DNA of 64,000 nucleotides, from contig CP141143.1 in the NCBI GenBank assembly GCA_035235625.1, positions 26,209,092-26,273,091 of the forward strand. Direction: 5' to 3'. This DNA is from Saururus chinensis (lineage: Eukaryota; Streptophyta; Magnoliopsida; Piperales; Saururaceae). A program made the translations under genes and the position numbers. The notes under the pieces are model-generated. The model made no database searches. It was not told the origin of the DNA and saw only the letters and a list, made by a program, of their open reading frames with translations. This document shows, piece by piece, positions 2,916 to 63,206 of this stretch (positions are counted from its first letter, which is position 1; every line of letters starts with the position of its first letter).

Positions 2916-4600
2916 CACTATAACAAAATGTACTATTAGCGACGCAAATAAAAGTGTCGATAAAAACCACTACTTGCGACACATACAAAATCTTCGAAAA
3001 AATGAACTATTAGCGACGCATCGTAATATTCGTCGCTAATAGTCATCTTTTAGCGATGCTTAATTTAAAGTGTTGCTAATACTAACCATATTAGCGATGC
3101 TTTCCAATAAACGTCGCTAATTAGTTACGCTATCAACAAACATCGTTAAAAGATATTTATTTAGAAAAAAGAAAAAAAATTAAATTATAACTATTAGCGA
3201 CCCTTTTTCTTAAGCATCGCTAATAATTTTAACAATAGCGATGTATGTTAGAAAGCGTTGCTAATAGTTATGATATTAGCGATGCTTAATAAAAGCGTCA
3301 CCAATAGTAATAAATTGAAAAAAAAATATTAAACTATTAACGGCGCTTTAATTAAGCGTCGCAAATAGCATTGATAATATCAGCACTTGTTTACAAGCGT
3401 TGCTATTAGCTTTATTTATTTTATTTAATAAATAATTACATTATAAATAAATATTAAAAAAACTAAAATAAACTTCTTAAATACAATATATTTTATTCAA
3501 TATTTACTATTTGTATATATAATAAATAAATATTAAAATTTTAATAAAAGGTAGTGCCAATAATAGATTAGACTTTCACTATTTATATATAATATATTTT
3601 ATTTCTTAAAATTTTTTATTAATTTTAAAATATAATTTATAATAAAAAAGAGAGAGTGAAGAGAGCAAGAGAGAGAAGAGAGAAAGGGTGATTAGGAGAG
3701 AGAGGGGGTGACTCAGAGAGAGAAGGAGGAGAGAGAGAAAGAGAGAAGAGAGAGAATAAGGAGAGTGACAAGAGTGCAAAGAGAGGGGGTGATAGAGAGA
3801 AAGAGAGAGAAGAGAGAGGTTGAGGAGAGAGGGTGAGGAGAGAGAGAAAGAGGGGAGAGAGGGTGAGGGGAAAGAGAGGGTAGAGAGAGAGTGGAGAGAG
3901 AGTGTGTAGAGAGTGAGGAGAGAGATAAGAGAGAGTAGAGAGGGAGAGTGTAGAGAGAGAGAATTAAAATTGATATTATAAATTATTTTTTTAAAATTTT
4001 AAAAATAAAAAAAATCTTATTAGTGACACATATATGTATGCGTCCCTACTAACTTAGGGTATTAGCGACGCATACATGTCGCTACTATCCTATTGCAGTA
4101 GCGACACATGCACGTATGTGTCACTACTAACTAGTGTAGTAGCGACTCATATATTATACGTCGCTAATAGTTTTTTATTTTAAAAAAAATAAATTAAAAT
4201 AGATAGAGAGACAGAGTGAGGAGAGAGGAGGGAGAGAGAGTGAGAGAGAGAGGAAGAGAGAGGAGAGATAGAGCGGAGAGAGAGAGGAGAGGAGAGGGGA
4301 GAGAGAGAGGAAGAGAGAGAATTAAAATTGTTATTATAAATTATTTTAAAAAAAAATTTTTAAAAAAATTCTTATTAGTGATGCATATACTTATGCGTCG
4401 CTACTAACGTATGTTAGTAGTGACGCATACATTATGCATCACTAATAGTTTTTTTATTTTAAAAATATTTAAATTAAAAGAGATAGAGAGAGTGAGGAAG
4501 GAGGAGGGAGAGAGGGGAGAGAGAGAGTAGAGAGAAGGGAGAGAGAGGAGAGAGAGGAAGAGAGAAGAGGAGAGAGAGAGAGAATCGATAAATAATACTT
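2916..4600 (+). mobile_element. CACTA element A, left terminus and subterminal repeats
   Basis: The segment opens with CACTATAACAAAATG, close to the plant CACTA terminus, followed at once by dense copies in both orientations of a TTAGCGACGC-type motif (2936-3400, 4020-4170, 4375-4450). These alternate with GA-rich blocks (3650-3960, 4200-4320, 4480-4585). This terminus-plus-subterminal layout is how CACTA (En/Spm) ends bind their transposase. It matches the left end of element D at 59732 better than that of element B at 14935. I find no matching right end before 14935, so the extent of A is unknown. A and D could each be a truncated copy of one family. Confidence 0.75.
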
Positions 4601-16039: not shown

Positions 16040-16470
16040 AAGTGTCGCAAAAAGTAGAAGAGAGAGAGAGGGGGAGGGAGTGAAGAGAGAGGGCAGAAAG
16101 AGTGGGAGGAGAGAGCAAGTGGAGAGAGAGAGAGAGAGGGTAGAGAGAGTGGGAGGAGAGAGCGAGTGAAGAGAGAGAGGGTAGAGAGCGGAGGAGGAGA
16201 GAGAGAAAGTGAAGAGTGATAGAGGAGACAGAGGGAAGAGAGAGAGAGAGTGAAGGGAAAGAGTGTAGAGAGAGAGTGGGAGGAGAGAGGGGGACAGTTG
16301 GGGAGGAGAGAGGGGAGAGTGGGAGGAGAGAGAGTGAAGAGAGAGGGTAGAGAGAGAGGAGAGATAGGAGAGAGAGTGGCAGAGAGAGATAGTGAAGAGA
16401 GAGAGCATAGAGAGAGAGAGTGGGAGGAGAGAGAGAGGGGGAGGAGAGAGGGTAGAGAGAGGGGGAGAGA
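16040..16470. repeat. GA-rich low-complexity block
   Basis: Polypurine GAGAGA runs; the long frames here (for example 15980-16507 minus) are artefacts of low complexity. Confidence 0.95.
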
Positions 16471-17527
16471 GAGTTAAATTTCCCTCTCCCTCTCGATTCC
16501 CCTTCAACCTCTCACTATCTCCCCCTATCTCTTTTATTTTAATTTATTTTAAAAAAATCGGGTAGTAGCCAAACCGAATTAAAGAACTGAGATATAAGAA
16601 CCGATCCGAATTAAAGAACCAAGATCCAGAAACCGAACCGACATAAGAACTGAAACCGAATAAAAATCGAACATTTTAATTAAATTACTTTAATTAATCA
16701 AAATCATAGTACAAAAGTGCAGCATTAGCCATTTATCACATACATTTAAACATAAAAATTGATAAAAGTTTGTTCAAAAGTCCCTGGAGCTCTGTCCTCA
16801 CTCAGGAAGATAATTTTTTGCCTCTCTATGCTCATCAAATCCCCCTTCATTTATAATAAGAAATAATTACAAAACACAGGTGCATCCGTAGCACAAACAA
16901 GTTATCAATCCAAACGGTTAAGCATCATCAGAATCAAAACCAATTTCCCAACTGATCCCTGCAATGCAATGGCTGGACAATGATCCAAAAATTAAAAAAC
17001 TGCCTCGTGCGATCCCCTCTTACCTCTCAAACAAAATATCAACTTTCACTAGCCTTTCATTAGAACTTTGCCATGCGAGCGCACCCAACATGGAATAGGT
17101 GTAACGACCCAACCCGAGCTGGGCCTACAAAATCAACAATAGAAACTTGAAATTTTCCTTAAGCCAGGAATCATCGTCTGTGTGCGAGAGGCACAACATT
17201 TGTCTACGCACTACGGAGCTTAAAGGCTTCCCCATACGTAGCCTTAGGTTGTAACGAACGCATACACACAATGAAGCTTCATAGTTCATCGCGTGTAAAA
17301 TAGAATAAAACATATTATTAAACTTAATTTGGATCGGGCCAACGTTGCCTTGCCGTTGGTTGCCTACGTATGTATTGGATATTATTTCAATACAATCGGA
17401 TCCGAACGTAGTTTTGCCTAACGGCTACTACATACATCGGATATCACAAAGTTATATATGTATAACATATGTATCTCCGAATATTTAATCGGAGTTATAC
17501 GGAAACCCAATAAAATACCGGCAACAC

Positions 17528-19810: not shown

Positions 19811-20827
19811 GCGACACATACTAATATATGTAGCTAATATAATTTATTTTATTTTTAAAAAAATTTAAAAAATAATTTATAATTTAAATTTTTTTCGTTC
19901 CCCTCACCCTCACCCTCTCTCTATATCTCTTTCTATTTCTCTCTCTTTCCTCTTTCTCTCTCTTCACCTTCTCTCTTCTCTCTCTTCACTCTCTATCTTC
20001 TCTCTCTACCCTCTTTCTCAAGTCTCTCTCTTCCACTCTCTCTCCACACACACACACTCTCTTCTCACTCCCTCTCTTCTCTCTCTCCTCACTCTCTCTT
20101 CTCTCCTCTCTCTGCTCCCACTCTCTACCCTCTCTCTCTTCACTCTCTCAATCCTCTCTCTCCTCCCTCCCTCTCCTCTCTCTCTATACCCTCTCTCTTC
20201 ACTCTCTCCCCTCTCCCTCTCTCTCTTCACTCTCTCTCTACCCTCTCTCTCCGCTCTCTCTTTCTCTCTCTCCTCTCTCTCCCTCTCTATTCCCCTTCAA
20301 CCTCTTTTTCTCTCTCCCCCTATCTCTTTTATTTTAAATTATTTTAAAAGAAAAAACTAGTAGTGTATGTGTCGCTACTAGGGTAGTAGCGACACATATT
20401 AGTATGCGTCGCTAATATAATTTTTTTACTTTATAAATTTTTTAAAAATAATTTATAATTGAAATTATTTTCCCCTCACTCTCCCCTCACCCTCTCTCTA
20501 TCTCTTCCTCTCTCTCCTCTTTCTCCCCTCACCCTCTCTCTCTCCTCACTCTCTCTTCTCTCTCTCTAGCTACCCTCTCTCTCCTCTCTCTCTTTAGCTA
20601 CCCTCTCTCTCTCCTCTCTATCTCTATCTCTCCTCTCTCTTTCTTTTATTGTAAATTATATTTTAAAATTAATAAGAAAATTTAAGAAATAAAATATATT
20701 ATATATAAATAGTGAAAGTTTAATATATTATTGACACTACCTTTTATTGAAAATTTAATATTTATAATTATATATACAAATAGTAAATATTAAATAAAAT
20801 ATATTATATTTAAGAATAATATTTTAA
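19811..20827. repeat. CACTA B interior: CT-rich runs and TAGCGACAC repeats
   Basis: Long CTCTCT polypyrimidine blocks (19900-20300 and 20465-20645) are separated by a cluster of the subterminal word TAGCGACACAT in both orientations (20350-20420). No gene. The frame at 20018-20230 is low-complexity. Confidence 0.85.
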
Positions 20828-20836
20828 AATTTTTAA

Positions 20837-21205
20837 GGGAAAATTATATAAATAATAATAAAAAAATTATTTACCAAAATAAACCACTTTGGAAAATATT
20901 TTCCAAAATGGTGTTCCTTTTTGCCACGTTGAGCGCGCAAGCGGTACCGGCGCACATGTGGCTTTTTTTTAAAATTTTTAAGTTGATTTTGTCGTTTAGA
21001 ATGACGAAATTGGTTTTAAGACGATTTCGTCGTTCTAAACGACGAAACTGTTTTAACTTGACCCGGTTTCGTCGTTCAGAATGACGAAATCAACTTAAGC
21101 TGATTTCGTCGTTCTAAACGACGAAACTTCCACACTTATGCCATTTCGTCCTTCGGTCTCGGCAGCAATACTGAATTCGTCGTTCTAAACAACGAAATCA
21201 AAATA
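20837..21205. repeat. MULE left terminal inverted repeat
   Basis: Matches the reverse complement of 27185-27514 over its length, including a phrase that reads ACTTCCACACTTATGCCATT here. It carries five copies of the palindromic word TTTCGTCGTT-nnn-AACGACGAAA (20990-21205), most conserved in the CG-containing halves. Confidence 0.9.
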
Positions 21206-21373
21206 AATTTTTTTAAAAATAGTATTTGAAACTAATTTTATCACCTGTCCTTGTTCATTCATTCAAAACACACAATACATATACGACTTCATTCATTCCA
21301 CCCATAACAAATATCATTAAAATACATCATAGACGAATATTAAATATATTACATCACAAGTTGAGAAAATGTT

Positions 21374-23659
21374 TAACATATAAAAAAAGTAATGTCATAA
21401 TCTCCTACGTCCTCGACCTCATCCTCGACGGTGGTGTACGAGCTCCTCATGATCTGCCTCTAGCTCTGGCTGTGGCTCTGGCTCGGGCTGCGACTCCAGG
21501 TCCAGCTCCTGCTCGGGCTCCGGCTCCGGCTCAGCATAAGTAATAGATGGTACAACACGAGCTGGCCAATGTCGTCTATAATATAAAATTGGATCTGGCT
21601 GAGCTACATGGCAGTGTCCAGAAATGATGAACATGGAGGAGAGCTATATGTTGCTGATGATGATGGAATATCAGGGCATGAAGAGTGCATTGATTGCGTC
21701 TGAGCGGCCTCGTGGACAGGATAATCTCGATGAACATCCGTGATCACCGAATGAAGTAGTGGCAAGCTACGAAGGACATCATCAGACTCTCTAATCACCG
21801 ACTCACATGCTGCTGATAAGTCCTTGCACGAAGTACAGGTCATAAGTGCATCACTCAAATGCGCATGTGTACGTCGAACTAGACGAAGCTATAAAAAAAT
21901 AAATTAAATATTAGATAAATAATTAAAACGAAATAAGAAAATAATATATGCCTTAATTAACAAAGTTGTAATTACTAGAGCTGCCTCAGACGCTCCCCTA
22001 GGCTGATATGTCATCTCCTCTACATCATCGCGCGGTAAAATATATCGTCGTGTAATCGGTAAATACCACTGCATATAAGTACTACGAACATCTCACAATG
22101 TCGTAGCCATCTCCCCTCTAATAACAATGACTCTCCTATCCTCCCATCGAGCAATATACGACGCATGATGTATAGCCCAATCGGTAATATGGCGGCCCTA
22201 TCGAGTGATGCAGTGGACAAACTCGACGATAGAAGGTGGGACCCCTTGCTCCAGGTTAAACTGGAGCATTACACGATCCGGCACATGCATCTCGATAATC
22301 TCGTAACATATTAACGGAGTTCGAGATAGCCACACCTCTCGACCGTCCGTGCATAGGGGAGGTAACACAGCCAACACGTCCTCTGAGTACGGCTGCCAAA
22401 TAATCTATACAATATATAAAGATAATTTAGTTTAAATAATGACAATTTTTTTTAAAATCATTACATAAAAAAGTTCAACACGGTAATAAAATTACCTGGT
22501 ATGTGGTCTAACTCCCCTCTGTATAGGCGGAGTACTCCTTGTGGATTTTCGGTTCTCTTTTTCCGAACATTCCACCTTAAGGAGTTAAATTAAAAAAATA
22601 AGTTCAACATATGTATATAAAACATTGCTAAAAAAGTAACGTGGTAAACATAAATACAACCTACCTCACCCCTAATGGAGCACCCTCGACCAAGCGACCC
22701 ATCTCAGCACTTGGTTGGCCGACGTGTAAGTGCTCCCACGACCATAACTATGTCAGAAAATAGTGATAACAAATATTACAATTAAAGAATTATACGTGAC
22801 TAAAACACCAAGTAAAGTTACACAATTAATTACCTGAAGAAGGGTCAAACAGCCCGCAATCCCCGAGGTCATGGCTTGGCATGCTTTTCCTAACTCTCGG
22901 TATAAGAATGCGAGAGTAGTACTGCCCCATGAATTAGTACCAGCCATGTCAAAGTCGGCAAGGAGGGAGAAATACGAAACATGCACGTGGCTGCTCATGG
23001 TATCCACAAATATCGTGGCTCCAAGTAAATGTAATAGATAAGCTCGTGCATGCTGCTCGATAACTATCTCTGTAGCATCAGCTGGGAGCTCGCGAAACTC
23101 ATGTAAGAGCCATCGTAGGCTCACTCGGCTACCACGCATCACTGTAGTAGGTGGAGCTCTACCAAGAAGTCTAACTAATATATCCATATGAGCTCCTCCT
23201 GTCGTGCCTATCGTAGGATGTCCATCAATACAAAGTCCTAATAGAACTGCCACATCCATGAGCGTGATGGACATCTCTCCATATGACAAATAAAATGTCC
23301 GAGTCTCCCTCCTCCATCTCTCAATGAGAGCTGTCAATAGGGGCCGATCTAGACGGACATACTGTATATGAATGAAATGGCTGAAACCCGCACGCTCGAT
23401 ATAAGGTAAAATATGCTCGTCTATAGGCCAATGGCAGAGATATTTAAAATGTTCGGTGCACTCAAGGCACCAGGGGTCCTAAAATAAATTTTAAAATTTT
23501 AACATAAGAGTACTATTTCATCTAAAAAATGAAACAAATTTTATAAAAAAATTATCATACCTCTCCTCTCCAAATAGCAGCAGACCTATGTGACTCCTGC
23601 TATATGAGTATGGAAGTGTCACTCGGTCCTGGCCTGTAACAAGGCTCTGCATGATCCAT
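21374..23659 (-). pseudogene. Plant mobile domain (PMD, aminotransferase-like) gene, degraded
   Basis: PMD proteins occur in plant MULEs and Ty3/gypsy elements and in the Arabidopsis MAIN/MAIL family; their molecular role is unclear. I read exons 23659-23561, 23478-22834, 22747-22666, 22575-22496, 22404-21976 and 21888 to about 21374, mostly with GT-AG borders in phase. The core reads TALIERWRRETRTFYLSYGE, then DVAVLLGL, RGSRVSLRWLLHEF, SWGSTTLAFLYREL, LWSWEHLHVG, WQPYSEDVL, MHVPDRVMLQFNLEQG and YMQWY, the usual order for the family. The C-terminus is an EPEPEPE-rich tail. Lesions: in-frame TAG at 23602-23600, TAG at 22200-22198, TGA at 22095-22093, an out-of-phase exon 4/5 junction, and a frame change near 21620. 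It lies 96 bp downstream of the transposase stop, same strand. Confidence 0.85.
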
Positions 23660-23755
23660 ATTATTTACAAAAAAATAAGATCATATCATTAATCAAAAGG
23701 AACACATGCATACGTAACTACAAATATAGAATAAATACAGAGGTTGATTATATGT

Positions 23756-26604
23756 TTACCAATCAACAGGAGGGTTTCTACATGATTTAATATTATGCCC
23801 ACTTTGTTTACAACTCCCGCATTTATATCCTCCTCTACCATCTCTCTCCATTGTTCTGCAGTCCATAGTATTCCTAATGCGAACAGACCGTGGGTGACCG
23901 GGTTGCCTTGTTGCTATCGGAGTGTATAACACAAAAGGTATATCCCTCTCCCAATACTCCCGACCACGAGGAGAATAAAATTCTGCGGAGTACATATTTT
24001 TATAAGTATTAGATGTGTAAAACAGTGATGCATGGATTGGCTCCCGCCGCTTTGCCCACACGGCGATAAGGTGCGAGCAAGGATAACCATAAACTTGAGG
24101 GATGTTGCATGTACAAGTATGCATCGCAACATTTACCATAACCTTTCGGGCTTGAATTGATGTCACTTCGTACTGACTCCTGTTGATCCTATTAACTATA
24201 TACTCCCCAATTTTTCTTGTTTGCTCTCTCAATATAGCTTCCACTCTAGGAGTATACGGGGTGGCCATGGCAGAGGCGGCAGAAGATCGTTTAACAAAAA
24301 AATTTATGAGCCGATAAAAGATAGCAGACAGTAAAGCCTGCATGGGTAAACCTCGTGCCCCCTTTAAGACGCTATTTAAACTTTCAGCCATATTTGTAGT
24401 CGTCATGCCAAATGTCATAATTCCACTGTGGGCATGGGACCATTGTGCAGGATGCAATTCTCCTCCTAAGAGGAGATGTTTTGCCCTAAGACTCTCTTGA
24501 CCAATCAAGTCCATTTTAGCATCAAACTTTTCTACTGTGAGTGCACAAGCTGCTGCCCCAATCAAATCCGTCAGTGTATCATTTTTGAACTCTTTCTTAA
24601 AATTTGCTTTTATGTGACGGAAGCAATAACGATGGTGGTAATCCGGCTCAGGAAGAACCTTAGGCACGGCCTTCTGAAGCCCCTTATGTTGATCTGAAAT
24701 AATGACGATGTTCATCATGCCCATCAGTACATGATCCCCCAGTTCCATTAGAAACCATTTCCAATTGTCTCCATCTTCCTTCCCGACAAGCCCGAATACA
24801 AGAGGAAATAACCCATTGTTTCCATCTGTAGCCGTTGCAGCCATAAGAGCACCAGGATACCTGCCATACAAGTGAGTGGCATTAACACCAATCACAGGGA
24901 TGCAATGTCGAAACCCCGCTATAGAAGGCCCAAATGCCCAAAACAACCGTGTAAATCTCTTATAAGTGCCACCATCTGCACGAGGTACTACATCATCCTC
25001 TAAGCGGTAGTAGGTGTCTGGATTTGCTTCTTGCACTGCCCTTAGGTACATTGGCAACAATTTATACGATTCTACCCAACCTCCATAAATAGCCTTGATC
25101 ACCATATTCCTTGCTGCCCATGCTTTCTTATAAGATATGTCAACATGATACTTCTCCTTCATTCTTTGAATAATATCCCCTGGTGTGAGAGTTAATTTGG
25201 CTTGGATAGCGGGCATTATGACCTTCGAAATAAAGGAGGCACTGCACTGCCTATGATCTGTGCTAAGCTGGGCATTCCGACATGTGTGGTCACCTTTGTA
25301 CATCTTCAATTTAAAGGACCCACCACCCCTTTTTATTGAGCCATGCACTCTCCAAGGGCAAGTGCTATCAATGCACTTCACTATATACTCTGACAAATTT
25401 GTTCGTACAACCTTGTATTCGACATGATTTTGAATGGAAAACTCCTGCAAGGCTGTAACATATGCTTCTTTATTCTCAAAGATGCGGCCAACATATAAGT
25501 CATCTTCATTTTGTTGGTCCATATCCATTGTTGAATTAACTGCCACATCTATCTCCTCATCTGTGATGTGTGCATAAAGTGGCTCCACTTCACAGTACGG
25601 CGGCTTTTCATCATCTACATTCATATCATTCCCAGCAATAGCATTGTCTACCGCATCATCCCCCTCGCCGTGAACCATCTGTTGAGCGCTTTCTTCACCT
25701 CTAACCCCTTCTACATTCATGTGAGAATCTTCTCCACTTACTTCGTCAATATTATCTTCACCTTCATTATCCTCATTTTCATCAATATCTTCACCATAGA
25801 GATATCCCCCCCTACATATAAATATCGCATATGTATTAAATTTCGTAAACCTAAAAAAGTTGAATTCATTTATAAATATATATTTCACCTTTGATTGGAT
25901 GGTCCAGCATCGGTATGACCAACATACGTGTAGGGGTAATGAAGGCCCACCGAACTTTGAGTTTCATACCATGCACCGCCTTGAGACATTTGAATGTTGA
26001 ATGGCTCGTGTGCATGCATCGTGGACCTTCCATATTACGCACAAAATCTCAAAATTTAGCTAAACGTATTTTCATTAAAAGATAATAAGATTGAAAACGT
26101 ATTCACAACTAAATCAACCTTACCTCCAATTAGGTCCACTTCCATCGTAAATAGGGGCAGACGACCTATGATGTTCATTTGAAGCTACTGTCATAGATAA
26201 ATTTCCTTCTTCTTCGTCGTCCACCGGCATTTGCATATGACTTTCATTGTTCACATTTCTATTCGAGCTCTTGTGTGAGCTTCTGTGAGAGCTCCTATGT
26301 GAACTACTTCGCCTTTCACTAGGCACTCGGGCCTCTTTTTCGAGAAATAACTCGAAAGAAATTATGTGACGCGAGTGGTGAAACATAAAACCCATTGATG
26401 CATCATCATTTATACATATTAATACCATCCTCAATGCGTATGATAGAATATTACATTTGATAGTAATTTTCCATCTTCTTCGATCCAACCCAACCTTGTT
26501 TGCTACTTGCATCTCAAATTCATCATATGTCGACGATTTCTTAATTAATAATCCTTCCGTACTCTGTCATAGGTAATTAAAAAACTAACCAATTCTTCTG
26601 TCAT
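23756..26604 (-). pseudogene. MULE transposase (MuDR type), first catalytic Asp changed to Asn
   Basis: I read three exons: 26604-26124, 26026-25889 and 25811-23756, with GT-AG borders that keep frame (NWR|STMHAHEP and SNQ|RGGYLYGED). Exon 1 encodes the MULE N-terminal domain (GLDRRRWKITIKC), exon 3 the DNA-binding and DDE parts. Numbering from an ATG at 25888, I see the catalytic region PVIGVNATHLYGRY (Asn336 where DGTH is usual), the second Asp in ISDQHKG (399), CxxH at 422-425, the Glu in TNMAES (502), a SWIM finger (CTC at 592 and PCSHL) and a CCHC knuckle (C690, C693, H698, C703). Exon 1 has a frame change between MTEELVSFLITYD and STEGLLIKKSS. The exon 3 frame of 711 codons is otherwise open. 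It would cut and integrate the element if repaired. Confidence 0.92.
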
Positions 26605-27184
26605 TTCTATTCAATGAATTCATAAACAATAAATTAAATTAATATTAGATTAAGCAAACTAATACTAAGATTTACACAATTTCCTAATCAATAAAATTAC
26701 ACAATTGATGTGATAAAACATGCAATGTCACAAACCATATAAGCCGTAAAAAAAAAGCATCTAAAGCCACAAAACAAAAAATGCTCATTTTTAAATAAAC
26801 CATCCAAAGCACACATTACACCAAAATACCGAATCAATGTCACAAACCATGCAATGTCACAAACTATATTCTCTAGATATGCAGCAAATATTTAATTTAA
26901 GCACATACTTTCAATTAACACACTTTTAAAGTAATTATTAAAAAAATTAGAAAAATTAGGGTACCACGGAATAGGTGCGAAATTGGAGCGGTTAAAATGG
27001 GGGCTGACGGCAAAGGCGGCAGGGAAGAGGAGGCAGGACCAACGGCGGACCAGAGGAAGTGAGATTGGCGGCGGGCCAGATGACGGAAGCCTGGAGGCGG
27101 TAGAGCGGAACGTTTTCACGGCGGACTGGACTGAAAAACTTACTTGAAATCCGTATGGAGGCGGAGAGGATTCGTGTTAAAACG

Positions 27185-27514
27185 ACGAGGATTTCGTCGT
27201 TTAGATCGACGAGGATTTCGTCGTTTAGAACGACGAAATCAGTATTGCTACCGAGGCTGAAGGACGAAATGGCATAAGTGTGGAAGTTTCGTCTTCAGAA
27301 CAATGAAACCGGGTCAACTTATAAACGGTTTTGTCGTTTAGAATGACGAAATCGTCTTAAAACCAATTTCGTCGTTCTAAACGACGAAATCAACTTGAAA
27401 ATTAAAAAAAAGCCATGCAGGCGCTAGCTGCTTGGCTGGCGCCTGCGTGGCAAAAAGGAACACCATTTTGGGAATTATTTTGGTAAATAAATTTTTTTTT
27501 TATATAATTTTCCC
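27185..27514. repeat. MULE right terminal inverted repeat
   Basis: Counterpart of 20837-21205, with the same TTTCGTCGTT palindromes and the terminal word ATATAATTTTCCC. It lies upstream of the transposase start at 26604, so it likely holds its promoter. A GC-richer region of about 200 bp (26960-27180) lies between the repeat and the first exon. Confidence 0.9.
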
Positions 27515-27523
27515 AATTTTTAA

Positions 27524-59731: not shown

Positions 59732-60479
59732 CACTACAACAAAATGTAGTATTAGCAATGCATTTATTAGTGACACTTAGCTAAGCGTCGCTAAAAATAA
59801 TTATTTGCGACGAATAAAAAAAGTCATAAAAAGAATAAACTATTAGCGACGCATTTTCTTATGTATCGCTAATAGTCATATATTAGTGACACTTAGTTTA
59901 AAGCGTCGCTAATACTAATCATATTAGCAACACTTTATTTTAAGTGTTAATAATAGTTCTTCTATTCGTGACGCTTTGCACAACCGTCGCTAAAAGATAT
60001 ATATTTTAAATAAAAAAGAAAAAAAACATAACTATTAGCGACACTTTTCTTGAGCGTCGTTAATAACTTTCAAAATAGCGACGCTTATCCAAAAGTGTCG
60101 CTAATAGCAGTGCTTACAAAATCGTCACTAATAGTTATGAATTAAAAATAAAAAAATAAAAATTTTAAATTATTAGCGACACTTTTGAATAAGTGTCGCA
60201 AATACCATTTCTAATAGCGACGCTTGTTGACAAGCATCGCTAATATCTTTATTAATTAATTTTATTTAATAAATAAATATTAAAAAAATTATAATAAACT
60301 TCCTAAATATAATATATTTTATTTAATATTTATTATTTGTATATACAATAAATAAATATTAAATTTTCAATAAAAACTAGTGTTAATAATATACTAAACT
60401 TTCACTATTTATATATAATATATTTTATTTCTTAAATTTTATTATTAATTTTAAAATATAATTTATAATAAAAGAGAGA

Positions 60480-60920
60480 GTGAGAGAGTGCATTGAGAGA
60501 GAGAGTGTGAGAGTGAGGACAGAGGGGGATTGAAGAGAAGAGAGAGAGAGGAGAGAGAGAGAGGGAGAGAGCGAGAGGAGAGAGAGGGAGAGAGAGAGAG
60601 GAGAGAGAGAAAGGAGAGAGGGAGAGAGAAAGGAGAGAGGGAGAGAGAAGAGAGAGGGAGAGAGAGAGAAGAGGGTGGAGAGAGAGGAGAGAGAGAGAGG
60701 AGAGAGAAAAGAGGGTGGAGAGAGGGAAGAGAGAGAGGGTAGAGAAAGAGGGGTGAGGAGAGAGAGGAAATTTTATTATTTTATTTGTTTTATATTTTTT
60801 ATTTAAAAATTAATTAAAAAGTAAAAAAATATTAGCGACATATATAAATATACGCCGCTAATACCTTAGAGTATTGGCGACATATAGGCCTATACGTTGC
60901 TAATACATTTGAGTATTAGC

Positions 60921-60983
<63 letters not shown>

Positions 60984-62655
60984 CTAATACCTTTGAGTAT
61001 AAGTGACGTATAGGCATAGTATTAGCGACGTATATCCATATGCGTTGCTAATACATTTTTATTTATTTGTTTTTAATTGATTTTTAAATAAAAAATATAA
61101 AATAGAGGGATGAGAGAGGGAGGGAGAGAGAGGGAGGGAAGAGAGAGAAAGGGGAGGGAAGAGAGAGAGAGAAGAGAGAGGAGAGAGAAAGGGGAGGGAA
61201 GAAGAGAGAGGGGAGGAGAGGGAGAGAGAGAGAGGAAAGGAAGGGGAGAGAGAGAGAAGAGAGAGAGAGGGGAGGGAAGAAGAGAGAGGAGAGAGAGGAA
61301 AGGAAGGGAGAGAGAGAGAAGAGAGAGGGGAGGGAAGAAGAGAGAGGAGAGAGAGGAGAGGGAGAGAGAGAGAGGGGAGGGAAGAAGAGAGAGGAGAGAG
61401 AGAGAGGAGAGGGAGAGAGAGAGAGGAAAAGAAGAGGAGATAGAGAGAGGAAAGGAAGAGGAGAGAGAGAGAGAGGAAAGGAAGAGGAGAGATAGAGATA
61501 GGGAGGAGAGAGAAAGGGGAGGGAAGAGAGAGAGAGAGACCGGAGGGAAGAGAGAGAGGGGAGGGAAGAGGGAGAGAGAGAGAGGAGAGGGAAGAGAGAG
61601 AGAGAGGAGATCAAGGGAAGAGAGAGAGAGGAAAGGGATGAGAGAGAGGAGATCGAGGGAAGAGAGAGAGAGAGGGGGGAGGGATGAAGAGAGAGGAGAG
61701 AAGAGAGAGGGAGAAGAGAGAGGAGAGAACAGAGGGGGAGAGGAAAGGAAGAGGAGAGAGAGGAAAGGAAGAGGAGAGAGAGAGAGAGGAAAGGAAGAGG
61801 AGAGATAGAGAAGAGAGAGGAAAGGAAGAGGGGACGGAAGAGAGAGCGTGAGAGAGGGAAGAGAGAGGGGTGGGAAAGAGAGCGTGAGAAAGGGAAGAGA
61901 GAGAGGAGAGGGAGAGTAATTTTAATTTAATTTTTATATTTTTAAAGTAAAAAATAAAACTTAAAATAAATACTAATAGCGAAGTATATACATACACGTC
62001 GCTATTAGTATATGTATTAGCGACGTATATAATTATACGTTGCTAATACTATGATTTCTTTTAATTCTTTTTTTAATTTTTAAAATTAATTTTAAAGAAT
62101 AAAAAATGTTAAAAAATTGAAAGAGTGAGGGAGACAGAGAGGGAGAGGAGAGAGGGAAGAGAGAGAGAGAGAGAAGACATAGGAGAGGGAGAGTAATTTT
62201 ATTTTAATTTTTTTTAAAAAATTATTAATTTTATATTTTTAAAATAAAAATAAAACTTAAAATAAATACTAATAGCGACATATATATATGTCGATATTAA
62301 TATATTTATTAGCGACATATATAATTATACGTCGCTAATACGTGACATATTAGCGATGTATAATTATATACGTCGCTAATATGATTTCTTTTAATTCTTT
62401 TTAAAATTTTAAAATAAATTTTAAAGAATAAAAATCTTAAAAAATTAAAAGAGGGGGAGAGAGAGAGGAGAGAGAGAGAGGAGAGAGAGGAGAGGGAAGA
62501 GAGAGAGAGGGGAGAGGGAAGAGAGAGAGAGAGAGGAGAAGGAGTGAGAGAGAGGAGAGAGAAGAGAGAGAGGAGAGGGAAGAGAGAGATAGAGGGGAGG
62601 GAAGAGAGAGAGAGAGAGGAGAGGGAGGGAAGAGAGAGAGAGGAGAGGGAGTGAG
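60480..62655. repeat. GA-rich low-complexity blocks in CACTA D
   Basis: Polypurine runs at 60475-60770, 61105-61915, 62125-62190 and 62455-62660. The long frames on either strand (61110-61808 plus, 61084-61614 minus, 61611-61997 minus, 60530-60742 plus) translate to Arg/Glu or Leu/Ser runs and are not genes. Confidence 0.95.
60924..60982. repeat. TA microsatellite
   Basis: TA run of about 59 bases that replaced the middle of a TTAGCGACATATA hairpin unit in CACTA D. Confidence 0.95.
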
Positions 62656-63206
62656 GGGGGATATATTTTTAAAAAAAAGTGTATTAGCTATGCATATATG
62701 TAAGCGTCACTAATAAGTATATGTATAAGGACGCATTGGTATATGTGTCGCTAATAATATAGGGTATTAGACACATATAGAATTATATGTCGCTAATACT
62801 CTACAATATTAGCGATGTATACTACTATGCGTCACTAATAGCTAAAAATATATTGCAATGTTTATAATGGCAAATACGTTTTCTTGTGACACTTAACTAT
62901 AAGTGTCACAAAAAAACTAATACTATTTGCGGCGCTTTATCTAAAGCGTCGCAAATAGTTTCTTTTTAACGACGATTATTGTGAAGTGTCGTGAAAAGCA
63001 TGAGTATTTCGGTAATATAGTAACTGGCCTTTTGCGACACTGCTGACAAAGCGTCGCAAAAGGGCTGAAGTTTCACCGCACACGAAATTTCATGCATGGC
63101 TGAAATTTCTCTCGGGCAGCTGAAATTTCTCGTGCGCGTGGCCGCAAAATTTCGCGCAGGCAAAATTTTGACCAGTCTGTTATAACCCGAGCCGACGGGC
63201 TGTTTT

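Follow-up and report, generated by a model that had tools for sequence, protein, structure and literature searches.

A family of Mutator-like elements in Saururus chinensis with a transposase gene and a plant mobile domain gene as one coding unit

What does a protein with a plant mobile domain (PMD) do for the transposon that carries its gene? The question is raised by a 64,000-nt stretch of the Saururus chinensis genome (contig CP141143.1, positions 26,209,092 to 26,273,091; hereafter the window), which contains a Mutator-like element (MULE) of 6,678 bp at 20837..27514 with a transposase gene followed by a PMD gene. The literature treats PMD as a domain whose function is not known (PMC7156037, PMC8616336). 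We describe a MULE family in which transposase and PMD are a coding unit, an association already known in itself; what we add is evidence at the scale of the family, an out-of-frame junction between the two genes, and a VANC fold predicted for relatives of the PMD protein. The DNA itself shows the borders and the target-site duplications, the order of the genes, their linkage throughout the family and their co-descent, and also that PMD is under purifying selection.

The element and its family

The element begins with GGGAAAATTATATAAA at 20837, and the inverted partner of this end closes it at 27514. It is flanked by identical 9-bp target-site duplications (TSDs), AATTTTTAA, at 20828..20836 and 27515..27523, a match whose chance at a fixed place is about 2e-5 given the local base composition. 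The left terminal inverted repeat (TIR), on the PMD side (20837..21199), pairs with the right TIR on the transposase side (27214..27514) in arms of 89 nt at 91%, 80 nt at 94% and 66 nt at 80%. The two genes are read from the minus strand, the transposase ahead of PMD, with 96 bp between the transposase stop codon (23756-23758) and the PMD ATG at 23659. The exact TSD, the matching long TIRs and the closely spaced co-directional genes reported in a preliminary description of the locus are thus all present. Chance matching of TIRs or TSDs was rejected on the arm pairing, the TSD odds and the exact TSDs of other copies, and the long TIRs, the 9-bp TSD and a MULE transposase domain, whose DDE columns are present in homologues although the first Asp is Asn here, place the element among the MULEs.

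To find related copies, we searched the genome (516 Mb, 11 contigs) with the TIR (best 40 of 3394 first-look candidates scored), with PMD exon 2 (best 150 of 2020 candidates scored, each at least 85% identical) and with the transposase (best 65 of 5505 candidates scored); the copy lists are lower bounds, weighted to the nearest copies. Among loci picked by PMD, transposase exon 3 lay directly upstream in 26 of the 29 others (L010-L038), partly deleted in L017 and L038; the exceptions were L026 and L034, with no transposase in the stretch, and L035, where a TIR lies directly upstream of PMD and replaces the transposase. When transposase was the starting point, a PMD exon 2 match followed at 239-295 bp, mostly 280-281, in 41 of 65 cases including the window, the remaining 24 having no partner among the PMD matches listed. 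PMD sequence was present in all 11 transposase-picked loci that were cut out (L046-L056; L053 and L032 are one element). One of these, L051, has full-length transposase exons and a deletion of PMD exons 2-4, which makes it a natural test of the need for PMD in cis.

TIR-picked loci fell into two kinds. PMD exons were found in 5 of the 10 other loci (L004-L007 and L043), and no gene piece was found in the stretch read of L002, L003, L008, L042 and L044, which by their sequence are gene-less derivatives; for L002-L008 the stretch extended 1.5 kb on either side. None of the ten had a transposase without PMD, in stretches that for L002, L003 and L005-L007 reached only that far. Two short derivatives, L008 (1,283 bp) and L042 (2,132 bp), have exact 9-bp TSDs, as do four coding copies of 6,719 to 7,398 bp that were read whole: L039 (TTGAAACAC), L040 (TTGATTATA), L041 (TTTTAAATA, with a deletion within PMD exon 2) and L043 (TAAAAGTTT). 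The 9-bp TSD scan found none in L044 and L002.

The two-gene unit put forward in the preliminary description is upheld by the linkage across the family. That description had named two observations that would speak against it. Copies consistently lacking PMD were not what we found, the ten loci being evenly divided between PMD-bearing and gene-less. A nested, separate insertion of PMD was rejected as well, as PMD has no borders of its own and its order, spacing and phylogeny are common to the family.

Selection was assessed by mean pairwise ratios of nonsynonymous to synonymous change (dN/dS), with the wrong reading frames as controls. For PMD exon 2 the ratio was 0.27 in a set of 30 copies (wrong frames 1.06 and 1.19), which, being the top scorers for the exon 2 protein, are biased to low nonsynonymous change there. 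Copies chosen through their transposase or TIR gave 0.40 for PMD exon 2 (11 copies; wrong frames 0.73 and 1.06) and 0.42 for the transposase (12 copies; 0.64 and 1.07); the transposase part gave 0.45 in its true frame in a set of 25 copies (0.68 and 0.91). Variants of exon 2 seen once had a ratio of 0.54 and those in at least three copies 0.14 (wrong frames of the shared class 1.82 and 1.48); the transposase gave 0.67 and 0.20 (0.67 and 1.03). The transposase- and TIR-picked set, divided into variants seen once and in at least two copies, gave 0.45 versus 0.31 for exon 2 and 0.61 versus 0.29 for the transposase. Judged from the dN/dS values of both sets, the constraint on PMD exon 2 is close to that on the transposase, and is stronger in shared than in private variation, so that the purifying selection which the preliminary description had proposed to look for is found and is frame-specific. 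The PMD and transposase distance matrices were also correlated (r = 0.90; 24 copies; 0 of 2000 permutations), in keeping with co-descent of the two genes.

Genes of the window copy and their junction

The window transposase gene has three exons on the minus strand. Exon 1 (26124..26604) encodes an N-terminus that is PB1-like by eye and by the model of a relative; exon 2 (25889..26026) is a gene-model exon bounded by GT-AG; and exon 3 (23756..25811), with 684 open codons, holds a MuDR DNA-binding domain (PF03108), the MULE DDE domain (PF10551, E 2.1e-16), a SWIM finger (PF04434) and a CCHC zinc knuckle whose match is under its Pfam cut-off. Exon 1 is out of frame past codon 19, whereas 9 of 14 other copies keep it open (15 were put to the comparison; L053 gave no match). 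The first DDE aspartate is an asparagine in the window and an aspartate in the 12 aligned homologues (25 found). Among 25 genome copies including the window, 23 have GAT as this codon, and the two that do not are the window and L010, a near relative of it; the Aristolochia fimbriata model P0054, outside the 12-homologue alignment, also has asparagine there. The asparagine common to the window and L010 may reflect a dead copy moved in trans, or the same change made twice.

The PMD gene, also on the minus strand, starts in exon 1 (23561..23659; ATG 23659), which has an in-frame TAG at 23602. Exon 2 (22834..23478) is open and encodes the first half of PF10536, matched over 22753-23478 with 159.2 bits against a gathering cut-off of 34.9 (E 2.1e-46), which assigns the gene to the PMD family. 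The splice sites of exon 3 (22665..22747; acceptor AG in 40 of 40 and donor GT in 39 of 40 other aligned copies) and exon 4 (22496..22575; 40 of 40 and 39 of 39) are conserved. By inspection the phases of exons 4 and 5 do not match in the window copy and this junction is uncertain. Exon 5 (21976..22404; its 3' end placed at the GT at 21975) has in-frame stops at 22200 (TAG) and 22095 (TGA), and a putative exon 6 (21607..21888) comes from the gene model, with a frame to which selection gives no support (0.78 versus 0.65 and 0.77 in the other frames). The three stops of the window, in exons 1 and 5, are not signs of a wrong gene model, a possibility we rejected because the commonest codon among copies at every stop column is a sense codon. 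Most PMD stops arose from CGA, CAG or TGG, as would be expected from decay of methylated DNA. A tally by hand gave 71 of the 150 scored exon 2 matches as stop-free and 79 with at least one stop. With stops in PMD, the DDE aspartate replaced and the frame of transposase exon 1 lost, the window copy should be inactive and unable to move itself; it lacks both the intact transposase and the intact accessory gene of an autonomous element.

The gap between the genes is probably an intron. An intron-like spacer (23665..23759, minus strand) is 95 bp long in the window and 94-96 bp elsewhere, the seven other introns of both genes measuring 73-98 bp; its donor GT is kept in 36 and its acceptor AG in 33 of the 37 other copies that could be aligned (41 loci offered), the window having kept the donor and lost the acceptor (AA). 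This reading is drawn from the quality of the sites, the length, and a pyrimidine tract that changes between subfamilies while the AG mostly stays. Splicing would form a TGA at the junction in all 33 copies keeping both sites; 29 of these would have the PMD ATG 4 nt past it, the exact start string not being matched in the other 4. An in-frame fusion of the kind described by Ikeda 2017 is not seen at this junction, as a stop intervenes in the unspliced form and with the best-placed splice; by inspection, weaker in-frame donors are present in transposase exon 3 and may allow weaker splices. A direct splice from transposase exon 1 or 2 to PMD was rejected by inspection, because the phases do not match in the family. 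In the A. fimbriata transposase models P0067 and P0069, PMD exon 1 is read in the wrong frame with an offset equal to that found here (17-20 of 21 residues are compatible, against no more than 12 in shuffles), which supports a joining just before the PMD start, in a separate frame, in that species too.

Elsewhere in the window, long GA/CT-rich arrays lie at 3649-4583, 16056-16473, 19910-20644 and 60473-62656; some adjoin repeats with TTAGCGACGC-like units, and the arrays are probably another repeat family.

What the PMD protein might do

On balance we lean, by a modest degree of confidence, towards the window element being an inactive copy of an autonomous-type MULE whose PMD would be a VANC-type DNA-binding, anti-silencing factor made as a protein of its own. 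One promoter beside the transposase-side TIR would drive both proteins; the spacer would be spliced out, so that a UGA would stand at the join and the AUG of PMD would follow 4 nt on, in another frame. Because of that UGA and frame, PMD would be made separately, by reinitiation or from a shorter transcript, rather than fused to the transposase. If its predicted fold is a guide, PMD would recognize non-coding DNA of the element, help the family to escape silencing as VANC21 does for VANDAL21, and so allow the transposase to be made and to act; gene-less copies, which retain TIRs and palindromes, would be mobilized in trans, and the window copy would have lost both genes later by mutation.

The obvious candidate target is an array of 23-bp near-palindromes (TTTCGTCGTTTAGAACGACGAAA, at most 4 mismatches) in the TIRs. 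A pattern scan placed five in the left TIR (20987..21197, starts 20987, 21025, 21067, 21104 and 21175) and four in the right TIR region (27192..27389, starts 27192, 27216, 27329 and 27367), with 0 matches on the plus strand of ten mononucleotide-shuffled windows; five other copies scanned whole (L039-L043) have 3 to 6 per end. The palindrome holds CGACGAAAT, which we take to be a sequence of maize Mu TIRs near the MURA site.

The VANC comparison comes from relatives of the window protein, whose predicted fold matches VANC21. Seven of the 41 PMD matches, all A. fimbriata gene models, have both PMD and MULE domains; the Vitis model P0072 has PMD with SWIM, and P0002 shares 72% identity with a MULE transposase over its first 25 residues. 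In a 38-row tree, built without Arabidopsis or Ikeda 2017 PMD-C sequences, the window PMD groups with Aristolochia MULE-linked PMDs in a clade of 14 rows (the window, 12 A. fimbriata PMDs and the metagenome protein P0001; support 100/99). By eye, P0035, P0033, P0052 and P0065 (Macadamia, Aristolochia, Linum and Dendrobium PMDs) have MULE transposase-like N-termini, modelled in P0035 with a PB1 fold, and the Linum protein groups with a Brassicaceae PMD-phosphatase protein (95/88); judging by such sequences, some 'genic' PMDs may descend from MULEs. The possibility that PMD resembles a solved structure in sequence was rejected, P0035 having no match at E <= 1 and the nine matches of the PMD profile up to E 10 lying in its C-terminal low-complexity part. 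The same genome has at least 150 DUF1985 (VANC-domain) reading-frame matches, from the best 150 of 957 candidates, so that elements of the VANC type and of the PMD type may coexist in it.

Several points weigh against this reading, besides the biased choice of copies mentioned above. The role of PMD is drawn from sequence, fold and analogy; the fold models are of relatives' proteins and not of the window protein, and a shared fold shows no function. The template-modelling score to VANC21 is 0.47 by target length at 9-12% identity, and VANC21 was not among the 50 Foldseek rows listed for the first model, appearing only on a second look; in VIA-align, residues 1-109 of that model also matched PB1 and ubiquitin-like rows. 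Profile comparison gave a probability of just 34%, with a DUF1985 set low in diversity. No DUF1985 match was found in 25 of 33 PMD proteins, nor in window exon 2, for which PMD alone is listed; the best PMD protein, P0001, scored 18.2 bits against a cut-off of 35.1. Palindrome conservation (0.924) shows no excess over slid controls (0.88-0.94), and that of the spacer donor and acceptor (0.97/0.89) none over the mean dinucleotide (0.93), the acceptor being absent in 4 of 37 other copies, of which 3 are alike. Constraint on PMD exon 5 is less clear than on exon 2: the mean pairwise ratio in 34 copies is 0.44 (0.60 and 1.15 in the wrong frames), with 0.55 for variants seen once and 0.42 for those in at least three copies (wrong frames of the shared class 0.47 and 0.78). 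Finally, the host PMDs MAIN and MAIL1 promote silencing, which is the opposite sign (PMC5418596).

The palindromes could equally serve the transposase, and PMD might be a transposase co-factor in end binding, synapsis or insertion with no silencing role, as in the parallels of mudrB in MuDR and TnpA in Spm. PMD adjoins the transposase and is co-inherited with it, the arrays lie in TIRs, where end-binding proteins act, and are kept by gene-less copies, and a VANC-like fold could bind DNA in either role. We nevertheless consider a co-factor not very likely: VANC21, the fold match, is described as anti-silencing (PMC5735166), and PF10536 occurs in the same protein in 0 of 25 plant MULE transposases, a count in which an adjacent PMD gene would not show. 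It is improbable, in our view, that PMD is instead a captured host PMD-C of MAIL type that interferes dominantly with MAIN, MAIL1 and PP7L and binds no element DNA. Ikeda 2017 infer MULE capture of a genic PMD-C and speculate on anti-silencing (PMC5418596), and MAIN and MAIL1 work with PP7L (PMC7156037), but the well-supported separate clade looks like an old lineage of its own, and such interference would release a large number of silenced elements, which offers selection little to act on in a single family.

Fusion of transposase and PMD into one protein by another splice that keeps the frame, as described in the grasses and in Amborella, finds support in the fusion proteins of Ikeda 2017 (PMC5418596), in those A. 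fimbriata models that are fused and in the weaker in-frame donors of exon 3; we give it little credence, given the TGA formed in 33 of 33 copies by the best-placed donor and acceptor and the shared wrong-frame offset of P0067 and P0069. That PMD is a passenger without a role, a transduplicated host fragment of Pack-MULE type, was already disfavoured and seems to us highly improbable. MULEs often capture gene pieces (PMC5418596), and the window PMD is broken, as are over half of the listed exon 2 matches; yet exon 2 shows frame-specific constraint close to that of the transposase in copies not picked by PMD (0.40 versus 0.42), the introns are kept, and the association recurs in A. fimbriata.

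Returning to PMD as an anti-silencing factor, Ikeda 2017 speculated that a MULE-borne PMD has this role (PMC5418596), and the modelled fold may give that idea a molecular reason. In the literature covered in part here, no claim of VANC-PMD homology was found and no paper joined DUF1985 with 'plant mobile domain'; the paper on the VANC21 structure (9lnj), outside the search, may already say so. A bolder extension, which we offer tentatively and hold with clearly less confidence, is that PMD and VANC belong to a single superfamily of anti-silencing proteins, carried by transposons, that bind DNA in a sequence-specific manner. TIR-MULEs and non-TIR VANDALs would then share a second-gene fold, each aimed at its own non-coding repeats (here the 23-bp TIR palindromes); MAIN and MAIL would be members turned to the opposite end; and PMD would be made from the same spliced message through a stop and a start 4 nt apart.

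Comparison with known systems

Like MuDR of maize, the window element has two genes, TIRs and 9-bp TSDs, and it differs in its second gene, as mudrB is not known to be a PMD gene. With many copies, defined borders, a PMD under selection and a predicted VANC21 fold in its relatives, the family makes PMD function open to direct experiment and, if the reading is true, would provide a concrete molecular hypothesis for MAIN and MAIL, for which Nicolau 2020 hypothesized that the MAIN/MAIL complex directly recognizes a promoter 'DOWN' motif (PMC7156037). MAIN, MAIL1, MAIL2 and MAIL3 (genic PMD-C) share the PMD domain with the window protein, but unlike this element-borne PMD they are host genes acting in silencing and gene expression, and the window clade stands apart from the genic-type PMDs sampled in our tree, which has no Arabidopsis sequences.

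VANC21 of Arabidopsis binds a short motif arrayed in the non-coding DNA of VANDAL21 and causes loss of methylation (PMC5735166); by analogy, the 23-bp palindrome would be the putative target here and anti-silencing the role of PMD. VANDALs are non-TIR MULEs (PMC13317346), whereas the window element has long TIRs, and the proteins are 9-12% identical. A close likeness is to the MULE-PMDs of Ikeda 2017, in which MULE transposase and PMD likewise occur within one element: PMD was first found in a rice MULE, and grasses and Amborella have PMD-C in fusion with MULE transposases (PMC5418596). The present family differs in keeping the two genes separate and out of frame, with a junction that resembles an intron, and in its many copies with exact borders, for which selection and co-descent have been measured.
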